Shown piece after piece: positions 18,642 to 59,345 of a stretch of 64,000 nucleotides of DNA. Below the pieces are notes generated by a model. That model did not search any database. It saw only the letters and a list, made by a program, of their open reading frames with translations, and had not been told where the DNA came from. Source of the stretch: Angiostrongylus vasorum. Lineage: Eukaryota > Nematoda > Chromadorea > Rhabditida > Metastrongylidae. Where the stretch lies: the NCBI GenBank assembly GCA_018806985.1, contig JADANN010000149.1:434001-498000 (forward strand), read 5' to 3'. Every line of letters begins with the position of its first letter. Positions within the stretch are counted from its first letter, which is position 1. The position numbers were made by a program, and so were the translations under genes.

Positions 18642-18669
18642 GACGTTTCGGCAGAATCGCCTTCTTTAG
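18642..18669 (-). ncRNA. hammerhead-ribozyme-like motif, one core change
   Basis: On the minus strand: CTAAAGA (CTGANGA expected), A, GGC, six-base loop, GCC, GAAAC, GTC. The G-to-A change in the first box probably inactivates it. Confidence 0.35.
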
Positions 18670-18684
18670 AGCCGCTTTTTTCGC

Positions 18685-18892
18685 GACTTGCAATGAGGAG
18701 GGTTAGAACAGCTGATTATAGTCGCATATGGTTGATGACTGCACTACCACGTCATCAGAAATTGATCCGAAGATAGATATCATATCTTATCTTAAGATAT
18801 CTATCTTCGGATCAATTTCTGATGAGGGGGTGGTGCAGTCATCAACCATATGCGCCTATAATCAGCTGTTCTAATCTTCCTCATTGCAAGTC
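18685..18892. repeat. foldback palindrome, arms about 96 bp, 16-bp spacer
   Basis: Left arm 18685-18780 and right arm 18797-18892 are reverse complements with only a few mismatches. The inner block ATATCTATCTTCGGATCAAT is identical. Confidence 0.9.
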
Positions 18893-19022
18893 ACGTAAAA
18901 AAGTGGTGAGTTTTTTCGAGAAGCTGTTGACCATGTATTTACCATAGAGTTTTTCGTCTTTTTGTAAGTGTTATTGAAGCGTTTGGCCTAGCAAATTGTA
19001 TATCAGTGTGCCGTTCCAGGCT

Positions 19023-19050
19023 CTGAAGAAGGCGATACTGCCGAAACGTC
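19023..19050 (+). ncRNA. hammerhead-ribozyme-like motif, intact core boxes
   Basis: CTGAAGA, A, GGC, loop GATACT, GCC, GAAAC, GTC. The first box fits CUGANGA, GGC/GCC forms stem II, and AC-GU of GAAAC-GUC forms a two-pair stem III with no loop, as described for minimal hammerheads of Penelope-like elements, which are thought to act as dimers. One extra A separates the first box from stem II. Activity is inferred only. Confidence 0.5.
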
Positions 19051-19564
19051 AGCTACTGTTGTATTGTTTTTTCTATGGAAGTAAATGTATGCTGTATAAC
19101 AACCTCGTGATTGCTGAAAAAAGAAAACGACGCATTCATATTCCAATGTCGAGGTTAATAGAAAGTCGATCCTGAGAATCGGCATAGAGTCAGTAATTTT
19201 TGACAACATCTTAAAGAGCGTCTGTTCTTAAAAACTTTCTCTGCTTACTAGCATTAGTGCTGATAATGCACATGTTAAATGAGAACTACTGCAGGCATGC
19301 GTTTTATCAGAGAAGATTGGCAAACGGCGAATAGAGTCAACGCGAAAGAAAGGGAACTACTTCGAAAATGTCTGTGCTCGTCCACAAGGTCAGCGACGAA
19401 TCGACAATGGACGGTTTTCGTTGAATTGCGGTCTTTTTTTGTAGCATTAGTGCTTAGACTTCATCAGTATACAACTGGTGTGAGAAAAAACAGATACGCT
19501 CGGTTATTTTTTGACTTCAGGATAATGCGCCTTTTCAAATCCTACTTTTAATGTTTATTTATGA

Positions 19565-19830
19565 AGTAAAAGGTAAGACGTCCAGCGTTGATCAATACCT
19601 TGGAGACATAGCATGCATTCAACTCTATTTGTAGCATCGTGGAGGTTACTGAATGTATATCTGGCCTAAACAATTACTTGTGGTGGCATACCGGTTTAGC
19701 AGGTCAGTCCTGCTACTCTCCCTAAAAAAATTTGTCACCAGTATGCTGACCTCGAGAGGGTGGGATCAAATCAGCGACCACGCATATATTGCAGAGCAGA
19801 TCTAATCCCAGTAGACACAAGCGCCTATTC
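19565..19830 (-). repeat. SINE-A copy, diverged
   Basis: Minus orientation, with GTCCAGCGTTGATCAATACC at the left, then the TGAATGTATATCTGGCC block and the GTGGTGGCATACCGG block. Confidence 0.65.
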
Positions 19831-20034
19831 TGCAAGTATCGACAAATAACTGCTTGCTTAGATACTTGGCCTGTCACCACTGGTTTTACGGGCCCCAGGA
19901 AAATTCTCACTCATTTCTTTATCGCGCAATCGTCGTCCATGGTGGTGGTCTGCTCCGAACATGGTGATGTCTGTGAGACCCATTCCGTAATCATGAAATT
20001 ATTGCCATCTGGGAGTGTAGATGTTTAACATTAG

Positions 20035-55085: not shown

Positions 55086-55135
55086 AACTATAATTATATA
55101 TATATATATATATATATACAACTATATATATACTA
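55086..55135. repeat. (TA)n microsatellite
   Basis: AATTATATATATATATAT run left of the CATA satellite. Confidence 0.9.
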
Positions 55136-55229
55136 TAATCATATTGTATTCTAACATAATATACATTTCTCTCCTGTTTGTGCTCATAAACTGCGAAATG
55201 CGTTGTGCTTAACTGATCACATATCATGG

Positions 55230-58182
55230 AACCAGATACATATTACACACACACATACACATACACATACATACACACACATGCATACACACGTAAATAC
55301 ATACATACATATATAAATACATACATAAATACATACGTAAGTACATACATAAATACATAGATAAATGCATACATAAATACATAGATAAATGCATGCATAA
55401 ATACATACATAAATACATACGCAAATACATACATAAATACATACAGTAAGTACATAGATAAATACATACATAAATACATACATAAATGCATACATACATA
55501 CGTACATACATACATACATACATACATACATACATACATACATACATACATACATACATACATACATACATACATACATACATACATACATACATACATA
55601 CATACATACATACATACATACATACATACATACATACATACATACATACATACATACATACATACATACATACATACATACATACATACATACATACATA
55701 CATACATACATACATACATACATACATACATACATACATACATACATACATACATACATACATACATACATACATACATACATACATACATACATACATA
55801 CATACATACATACATACATACATACATACATACATACATACATACATACATACATACATACATACATACATACATACATACATACATACATACATACATA
55901 CATACATACATACATACATACATACATACATACATACATACATACATACATACATACATACATACATACATACATACATACATACATACATACATACATA
56001 CATACATACATACATACATACATACATACATACATACATACATACATACATACATACATACATACATACATACATACATACATACATACATACATACATA
56101 CATACATACATACATACATACATACATACATACATACATACATACATACATACATACATACATACATACATACATACATACATACATACATACATACATA
56201 CATACATACATACATACATACATACATACATACATACATACATACATACATACATACATACATACATACATACATACATACATACATACATACATACATA
56301 CATACATACATACATACATACATACATACATACATACATACATACATACATACATACATACATACATACATACATACATACATACATACATACATACATA
56401 CATACATACATACATACATACATACATACATACATACATACATACATACATACATACATACATACATACATACATACATACATACATACATACATACATA
56501 CATACATACATACATACATACACATACATACATACATACATACATACATACATACATACATACATACATACATACATACATACATACATACATACATACA
56601 TACATACATACATACATACATACATACATACATACATACATACATACATACATACATACATACATACATACATACATACATACATACATACATACATACA
56701 TACATACATACATACATACATACATACATACATACACATACATACATACATACATACATACATACATACATACATACATACATACATACATACATACATA
56801 CATACATACATACATACATACATACATACATACATACATACATACATACATACATACATACATACATACATACATACATACATACATACATACATACATA
56901 CATACATACATACATACATACATACATACATACATACATACATACATACATACATACATACATACATACATACATACATACATACATACATACATACATA
57001 CATACATACATACATACATACATACATACATACATACATACATACATACATACATACATACATACATACATACATACATACATACATACATACATACATA
57101 CATACATACATACATACATACATACATACATACATACATACATACATACATACATACATACATACATACATACATACATACATACATACATACATACATA
57201 CATACATACATACATACATACATACATACATACATACATACATACATACATACATACATACATACATACATACATACATACATACATACATACATACATA
57301 CATACATACATACATACATACATACATACATACATACATACATACATACACATACATACATACATACATACATACATACATACATACATACATACATACA
57401 TACATACATACATACATACATACATACATACATACATACATACATACATACATACATACATACATACATACATACATACATACATACATACATACATACA
57501 TACATACATACATACATACATACATACATACATACATACATACATACATACATACATACATACATACATACATACATACATACATACATACACATACATA
57601 CATACATACATACATACATACATACATACATACATACATACATACATACATACATACATACATACATACATACATACATACATACATACATACATACATA
57701 CATACATACATACATACATACATACATACATACATACATACATACATACATACATACATACATACATACATACATACATACACATACATACATACATACA
57801 TACATACATACATACATACATACATACATACATACATACATACATACATACATACATACATACATACATACATACATACATACATACATACATACATACA
57901 TACATACATACATACATACATACATACATACATACATACATACATACATACATACATACATACATACATACATACATACATACATACATACATACATACA
58001 TACATACATACATACATACATACATACATACATACATACATACATACATACATACATACATACATACATACATACATACATACATACATACATACATACA
58101 TACATACATACATACATACATACATACATACATACACATACATACATACATACATACATACATACATACATACATACATACA

Positions 58183-58214
<32 letters not shown>

Positions 58215-59092
58215 CATACATACATACATACATACATACATACATACATACATACATACATACATACATACATACATACATACATACATACATACACATA
58301 CATACATACATACATACATACATACATACATACATACATACATACATACATACATACATACATACATACATACATACATACATACATACATACATACATA
58401 CATACATACATACATACATACATACATACATACATACATACATACATACATACATACATACATACATACATACATACATACATACATACATACATACATA
58501 CATACATACATACATACATACATACATACATACATACATACATACATACATACATACATACATACATACATACATACATACATACATACATACATACATA
58601 CATACATACATACATACATACATACATACATACATACATACATACATACATACATACATACATACATACATACATACATACATACATACATACATACATA
58701 CATACATACATACATACATACATACATACATACATACATACATACATACATACATACATACATACATACATACATACATACATACATACATACATACATA
58801 CATACATACATACATACATACATACATACATACATACATACATACATACATACATACATACATACATACATACATACATACATACATACATACATACATA
58901 CATACATACATACATACATACATACATACATACATACATACATACATACATACATACATACATACATACATACATACATACATACATACATACATACATA
59001 CATACATACATACATACATACATACATACATACATACATACATACATACATACATACATACACACATACCTACACACATACCTACACACACA
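55230..59092. repeat. (CATA)n tetranucleotide satellite, about 3.6 kb pure core with a degenerate left flank
   Basis: 55230-55490 is a degenerate flank of ACATAAAT/ACATACGT variants. About 55502-59062 is nearly perfect (CATA)n, roughly 890 units, broken only by eight two-base phase slips (near 56521, 56735, 57351, 57591, 57781, 58135, 58211, 58295). The right border passes abruptly through CACACATACCTACACAC into unique DNA. It yields four artefactual ORFs over 1,200 codons (repeating MYVC or HTYI). Confidence 0.98.
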
Positions 59093-59139
59093 CAGACACA
59101 CTTCGGGCTCTGCTTTGCATTAAAAAAGTTATATTTGAT

Positions 59140-59345
59140 TTATTCCACAGTTAAACTAGTTTTGTTTCAGTACAGTGGTAAATGAAAAACTAGAGCGACC
59201 ATCCCTATTAATCACTTTCACAAGAGCTCGAACTGCAAGTAGAATCATGAAGTGTGACAGTTAATGGCTGTGGACCATTGACTCAGTTCAACACAGCTCT
59301 GAAGAAGACGGAGGTGCGGGAGCGTTAGCCGAATAAAGTACTATA
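59140..59345 (+). repeat. possible PLE terminal-repeat scrap
   Basis: CAGCTCTGAAGAAGACGG and GCGGGAGCGTTAGCC at 59295-59330 keep the order of the hammerhead-like motif with many changes. Confidence 0.35.

Follow-up and report, generated by a model that had tools for sequence, protein, structure and literature searches.

Minimal hammerhead motifs at a putative splice junction and in head-to-head insertions of Penelope-like elements in Angiostrongylus vasorum

What does a hammerhead-ribozyme-like motif do that recurs along a stretch of nematode DNA littered with remains of Penelope-like elements (PLEs)? The stretch in question, hereafter the window, comprises 64,000 nt of Angiostrongylus vasorum contig JADANN010000149.1 (positions 434,001-498,000, forward strand), in which an initial annotation had marked nine such sites and read them as probably dimeric ribozymes of PLE terminal repeats. 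The explanation that we consider very probable is that the motif is the minimal type I hammerhead of GIY-YIG PLEs, which abound in this nematode, and that it lies in the leader of an element RNA of which two molecules may serve as templates for one insertion. The motif belongs to a kind already known, the minimal and probably dimeric PLE hammerheads. It starts directly after what appears to be an intron, and one insertion in the window suggests that two RNA molecules, one spliced and one unspliced, were copied into a single target site. The initial observation was thus confirmed in part, and its interpretation is partly supported.

The motif and its element

Minimal hammerheads are dispersed by the thousands in animal genomes, where dimers have been suggested and the role is given as unknown (PMC7761336); the type I hammerheads of PLEs were described by Cervera and De la Pena (2014) and by Lunse, Weinberg and Breaker (2017), as cited in the available text of PMC7761336, PMC6155905, and PMC6466107. 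In the window, the box order is exact at 19023 and 35266 (CTGANGA, A, GGC, loop, GCC, GAAA(C/T)GTC), and the core is also intact at 34639, where stem II has GTC (a G-U pair) plus GAAATGTC. These three of the nine sites carry, in order, CUGANGA, GAA, the A-U closing pair of stem III, and a UH cleavage site. At 18642 the first box reads CTAAAGA, with a core G changed to A, so the recurring order that had been claimed holds at this site only with a changed base. The other five (37702, 38759, 47522, 49605, and 59298) are decayed, as stated before. Stem III consists of two pairs without a loop, in a self-complementary ACGU; both are features of PLE minimal hammerheads, and both had been noted correctly.

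We searched the whole genome (280 Mb, 468 contigs) and found 9,818 exact matches to CTGANGAN{8,24}GAAAYGTC against 77 for the reversed pattern, so that the motif stands above chance; its boxes match the hammerhead core as proposed. A covariance model of our own, made from 46 copies at other loci with the window's rows excluded, recovered eight of the nine sites at E≤0.3 and six at E<1e-7, the E-values being rough.

To compare copies we used locus records (L numbers) selected for intact boxes, and grouped the copies by eye into families 1 and 2 and a CTGATGA family. Across 71 copies (60 distinct), 85% of the cells of stems I (six pairs) and II (four pairs) hold standard pairs, whereas slid registers pair in only 16-45%. 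Cells changed on both sides number 36 against a shuffled mean of 16, and the covariation score is 0.223 against 0.164, values that none of 500 shuffles reached; such both-side changes can also arise among related sequences without structure. Compensatory change in stems I and II is supported by three of five measures, with the changes lying between families and absent within them. The clearest such change is that of stem II between families, GGC/GCC (6,195 genomic copies) versus GAC/GTC (1,028 copies). When one copy of family 1 is set against one of family 2, none of the other five segments compared is as well conserved as the hammerhead (32/35; intron, 64/115). A PDB search was uninformative (best match E 0.21).

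The CTGATGA family (L127-L136 and L017:8655) has stem II GACG/CGTC, a pattern with 1,028 copies in the genome, as well as cleavage triplet GTT and a stem I of up to 6 bp. Among its 11 fetched copies, 10 lack a 3' splice site before the hammerhead and six have AATAAA just 3' of it. In one member (L131, 1-140), a nearly complete inverted hammerhead lies ∼30 nt upstream, so that the two could fold together within a single RNA.

The extra A between the first box and stem II is nearly fixed: 7,842 copies have it, 35 have no extra base, and 184 (under a narrower pattern) have another base in its place. Said to be unusual and present in every copy, it is indeed found in all three intact window copies, as an unpaired A between A9 and position 10.1, but it has a precedent in the plus-strand hammerhead of chrysanthemum chlorotic mottle viroid (CChMVd). 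There, an unpaired extra A after A9 moderately decreases cleavage in trans, C or G at this position is harmful, and U is three to four times faster, according to the available text of PMC3705267; unlike the PLE motif, CChMVd is a viroid with loop-loop contacts. The 35 copies without an extra base are unevenly split between strands (28 forward, 7 reverse). A search of viral contigs for the extra A in other lineages gave 78 matches; seven had a stem II of ≥3 bp, all of these with a stem I of ≤1 bp, and we took the matches as chance.

The placement in Penelope-like terminal repeats was borne out. Reverse transcriptase (RT) pieces (PF00078) occur at L009, L014, L019, and L024, the first three above the Pfam cut-off and the last below it, and a GIY-YIG piece (PF01541) occurs at L024; the two domains were found in separate pieces with broken frames. 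Direct hammerhead-open reading frame (ORF)-hammerhead units of ∼3 kb are seen at L024 (4307/7333) and L019 (4824/7805), and pseudo-long terminal repeats (pLTRs), direct and inverted, occur together with 5'-truncated tandem copies, as is typical of PLEs. Among the best 120 of 234 protein matches, the closest by identity, at 75-90% over 40-66% of the query, come from Angiostrongylus cantonensis and Angiostrongylus costaricensis; Ancylostoma supplies the best E-value, other strongylid nematodes follow, and the strongylid relatives carry both RT and GIY-YIG domains. PLE coding remnants also lie ∼130-410 bp upstream, on the same strand, of the hammerheads at 35266, 37702, and 49605; the claim that many copies stand without any coding part is only partly right.

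Intron, probable leader, and the two arms of one insertion

In unspliced copies the motif is preceded by ...tttccag/GCTCTGANGA (a slash marks the splice junction here and below), which places its start right at the 3' splice site that closes an intron of 102-119 nt; the AG of the intron ends 3 nt before CTGA. In 13 of 74 copies, a script located GTGAGT 102-119 nt ahead of ...CAG/GCTCTGA, preceded by a GAAAGSG-like exon end (...GAAAGCG or similar); the others have a decayed site, a short flank, or an inner GT reported instead. Reference introns are L024:4189-4303 and L019:4710-4819 (GTGAAT in the latter). Other copies read ...AGAAAGCG/GCTCTGANGA (AAAGCG/GCTCTGA), with the GT-AG segment removed exactly. 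Genome-wide, we counted 5,358 unspliced and 573 spliced junctions with patterns that differ in strictness, and none with the reversed controls; in all but two of the 20 spliced loci that were fetched, the match to exon 1 continues outside the stretch covered by the pattern. No SL1-like string that would point to a trans-spliced leader was found in the fetched loci.

Twelve of 27 spliced copies, from both families, have their 5' ends at -187 to -192, and the family 2 reference has TATATAA 30 nt upstream of the -189 point, which is probably the transcription start. The element RNA would then begin ∼189 nt upstream of the hammerhead (unspliced coordinates), with an exon 1 of about 71-75 nt, the intron of 102-119 nt, and an exon 2 that opens with the hammerhead. 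An ATG that matches the likely PLE start codon lies 100 nt after the cleavage site in L024 (at 4435) and 76 nt after it in L019 (at 4929), with 131 and 122 codons open, respectively. As the hammerhead would thus lie in the 5' leader, cleavage would remove the cap. Splicing would exchange part of one stem I strand, which the intron's end (AG) supplies at first and exon 1 afterwards. For family 2 this shortens stem I from 6 to 4 bp (-6.7 to -3.9 kcal/mol); a general rule that splicing weakens the ribozyme was dropped, since family 1 stays at 4 and 4 bp. We found no report of a hammerhead at a splice site in a literature search outside of which the two main PLE hammerhead papers fell, and this is weak evidence that the position is new. 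The Penelope element of Drosophila virilis has an intron near its terminal repeat.

Copies end at two sites 3' of the hammerhead, about 45 nt apart, and the interval between them, where the start codon would lie, is the published PLE "tail." Few unselected head-to-head pairs are available among the fetched loci. In 12 of 14 pairs, one arm is short and one long, that is, one arm per end site, the tail being optional (one of the 12, L023, was classed from a separate arm-end comparison); of the remaining two, one has both arms at the first site, and L024, itself serving as the reference, cannot be classed. Of 16 tested pairs, nine are flanked by direct repeats of 12-13 bp (0/200 shuffles as long) and another five by repeats of 7-10 bp (1-4/200 shuffles); none was found at L161 and L018. 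We take each duplication-flanked pair to be one insertion.

The insertion at 18552-19176 in the window is flanked by a perfect 12-bp duplication. Both arms begin at about -222, but the minus arm is of the spliced type and stops at the first site, whereas the 114-nt intron persists in the plus arm, which stops at the second. Such a combination within one duplication suggests that a single target site received copies of two RNA templates, one of them spliced and the other not. It also means that the inverted hammerheads at 18642 and 19023 are opposite-strand arms of one insertion, so that one transcript would not contain both in sense. Table 1 collects the features of the window.

Table 1. Hammerhead motifs and Penelope-like features in the window, with E-values from our covariance model
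Feature	Position	Strand	Remarks
PLE insertion with two head-to-head terminal-repeat arms, 625 bp	18552-19176	.	arms aligned; arms end at two element ends
Left 12-bp target-site duplication AATCGGCATAGA	18540-18551	+	identical to 19177-19188
Right 12-bp target-site duplication AATCGGCATAGA	19177-19188	+	
Hammerhead, core G changed	18642-18669; model 18634-18677	-	E 4.1e-13; spliced arm, junction ...AAAAAAGCG/GCTCTAAAG, no intron
Intron, 114 nt, GTGAGT...TTCCAG	18906-19019	+	absent from minus arm
Hammerhead, intact, start of putative exon 2	19023-19050; model 19015-19058	+	E 3e-16
Putative PLE start codon in optional tail	19146-19148	+	open for 9 codons in this copy
Intron upstream of 34639 hammerhead, GTGGGT...TTCCAG	34522-34635	+	
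Hammerhead, unspliced copy	34639-34666; model 34631-34674	+	E 1.3e-12; 5' end at probable transcription start (-189)
Hammerhead, intact, second family	35266-35294; model 35258-35302	-	E 1.4e-16; 29-nt core, 6-bp stem I
Intron upstream of 35266 hammerhead, 102 nt, GTGAGT...TTCCCAG	35298-35399	-	
PLE endonuclease-region remnant directly upstream of 35266 hammerhead	35499-35972	-	tblastn 46% identity, E 9e-36
Decayed hammerhead	37695-37739	-	E 0.3; 3' of RT remnant 38140-39227 (-)
PLE RT remnant in pieces	38140-39227	-	tblastn
Decayed hammerhead, missing from the initial annotation	38644-38686	-	E 0.0057; head-to-head with 38751
Decayed hammerhead	38751-38794	+	E 4.1e-8; spliced-type 5' flank AAAACG/GCT (resemblance only)
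Decayed hammerhead, core box CCCAGGA	47513-47556	+	E 2e-8
Decayed hammerhead	49605-49633	-	no model match at E≤1; 3' of PLE coding remnant 49762-50964 (-)
Fragmented PLE RT/endonuclease remnant	49762-50964	-	tblastn
Decayed hammerhead resembling CTGATGA/GTT family	59291-59334	+	E 0.014; 3' flank AGCCGAATAAA as in L129, L131
Doubtful hammerhead match	62887-62922	-	E 0.4

Elsewhere in the window, a decayed head-to-head pair (38644-38794, hammerheads 65 bp apart) lies within a PLE RT remnant. PLE RT remnants in opposite orientations occupy 61115-63683, with no recognizable hammerhead besides the doubtful match, and an endonuclease-region remnant with 53% identity to L024 lies at 13577-14020, with no hammerhead nearby at E≤1. 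An ATAC-type tetranucleotide array of about 970 copies fills 55236-59098; six long open frames and most mir-297 matches there were rejected as spurious products of the array.

A proposed mechanism and its alternatives

These observations are very probably to be joined as follows. Reverse transcription would start at the two internal sites and run back through the hammerhead to the RNA 5' end. Starting so near this end, it would run off after about 190-350 nt, which would account for the many short copies without a coding part. Insertions would often consist of a head-to-head pair, with each cut target strand extended into one arm on an RNA of its own, spliced or not. A more far-reaching reading makes the hammerhead a splice-junction and RNA-pairing device: splicing would set ribozyme activity, and the ACGU palindrome would join two element RNAs, spliced or not, each of which is then copied onto one strand of a shared target site, leaving head-to-head insertions such as 18552-19176. 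We regard this further reading as unlikely.

Several results weigh against the main explanation or parts of it. Unlike our own model, the Rfam covariance models gave no hammerhead in the window at the gathering threshold or at E≤5. Neither the number of pairs with a both-side change (4 versus 3.4) nor that of pair types (15 versus 15.2) exceeds shuffles, and each of the two outer stem I pairs is unpaired in 29 of 60 sequences. RNAalifold predicted a different stem for the copies, and in each of five cases plain folding gave a lower energy than the dimer as drawn (for example, -32.7 versus -25.3 kcal/mol). The mixed states of stem II are near equal (319 G-U versus 300 A-C), as are single changes of the palindrome (393 ATGT, in GAAATGTY, versus 470 ACAT, in GAAACATY), and a copy-level test of our own, without a published criterion, showed no preference for dimer-compatible changes in genomic copies. 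Because these single changes are (nearly) strand-symmetric, single genomic copies of the hammerhead look like products of neutral decay. As for the leader, only three of 39 unspliced copies begin at -189, all of family 1, and 27 of 39 reach further into the element, past -250; it is from genomic DNA copies that both the splicing and the start site are deduced. Splice-discordant arms are clear in the window insertion, and there may be two less clear cases, L018 (4156-/4369+) without a duplication and L013 (8927-/9518+) with a 350-nt spacer. On the features compared, the sequences fit PLE and minimal-hammerhead membership except in the Rfam match and our copy-level dimer test.

Neutral decay of genomic copies and the folding programs' preference for other structures would also fit a block conserved for another reason, as a binding site for the PLE protein, a splice enhancer, or coding sequence, with the hammerhead resemblance a by-product or a dead relic. 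Catalytic mutants of PAc, a Poseidon element of Anolis carolinensis, still insert according to the available text of PMC11167929, which would agree with this. However, families with unlike loops, stems I and II, and N7 have the core boxes and the extra A in common (in copies chosen for intact boxes), the stems change on both sides between families, and the cores of 28 and 29 nt keep no single reading frame, so we consider such a reading quite unlikely. The intronless copies, in turn, might represent an older lineage, the intron having been gained later, as the missing AG before GCT in 10 of 11 fetched copies of the CTGATGA/GTT family would allow. Yet both family 1 and family 2 include intronless junctions, in which exon 1 is that of the family concerned and the cut runs exactly from GT to AG, and the shared 5' ends of 12 of the 27 at -187 to -192 argue in the same direction; this history seems very unlikely.

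Self-priming on a single RNA, the route suggested for rotifer Penelope (PMC3846280, available text), could also have produced the head-to-head pairs. Palindromes at the junction would favor it, and so would six pairs spliced in both arms (L016, L017, L020, L159, L161, and L164), three of which were fetched for being spliced; the different end sites of the two arms in 12 of 14 pairs and the splice-discordant arms of 18552-19176 within one 12-bp duplication speak against it, and we judge self-priming unlikely. That the short copies are nonautonomous retrozymes spreading as ribozyme-cut circles would agree with the description of animal retrozymes as typically short hammerhead repeats without coding sequence (PMC7229834, available text). 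The fetched loci held no tandem short monomers bounded by hammerhead cleavage sites, though, and among their neighbors <1 kb apart head-to-head arrangement prevails, with same-strand neighbors that close only at L018 and L036. None of 63 tail matches begins at the cleavage site; only 10 of the 63 lack a hammerhead, in loci chosen for having one. A retrozyme origin therefore appears extremely improbable.

Relation to known elements

The A. vasorum motif resembles known PLE minimal hammerheads in its core, absence of a stem III loop, pLTR location, thousands of copies, and suggested dimer; its 3' splice-site position and fixed extra A go unmentioned in the available text of those reports. In PAc, the tail is the interval between two internal RT start sites, and both target strands are cut and extended, with no difference in start site between the strands (PMC11167929). 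Common to the two systems are a hammerhead close to where the ORF begins, a pair of internal RT start sites, and the cutting and extension of both target strands, the last two being probable in A. vasorum. They differ in that the PAc ORF begins at stem II, whereas the likely A. vasorum start codon lies 76-100 nt after the cleavage site. The available text on PAc describes no intron, and PAc cleavage needs protein.

Adineta vaga Penelope provides a second comparison (PMC3846280, available text). Its tail is an extension on one of the inverted repeats, and like the A. vasorum elements, it has head-to-head inverted pLTRs with the tail on one arm and an ORF start inside pLTR plus tail; we also count its 8-10 bp duplications as a likeness. 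The text names no hammerhead and leaves the template open, as antisense or unspliced sense RNA, whereas A. vasorum has spliced-junction copies. Hundreds of precise spliced junctions would imply that the template is, on some occasions at least, a spliced sense transcript, and spliced and unspliced arms in one insertion would mean that two RNA molecules can serve it. The use of two RNAs per insertion would be in keeping with the dimer predicted for the PAc protein and hints at what a dimeric ribozyme might be for. Whether spliced copies and two templates occur can be asked of DNA data alone in any PLE-rich genome.

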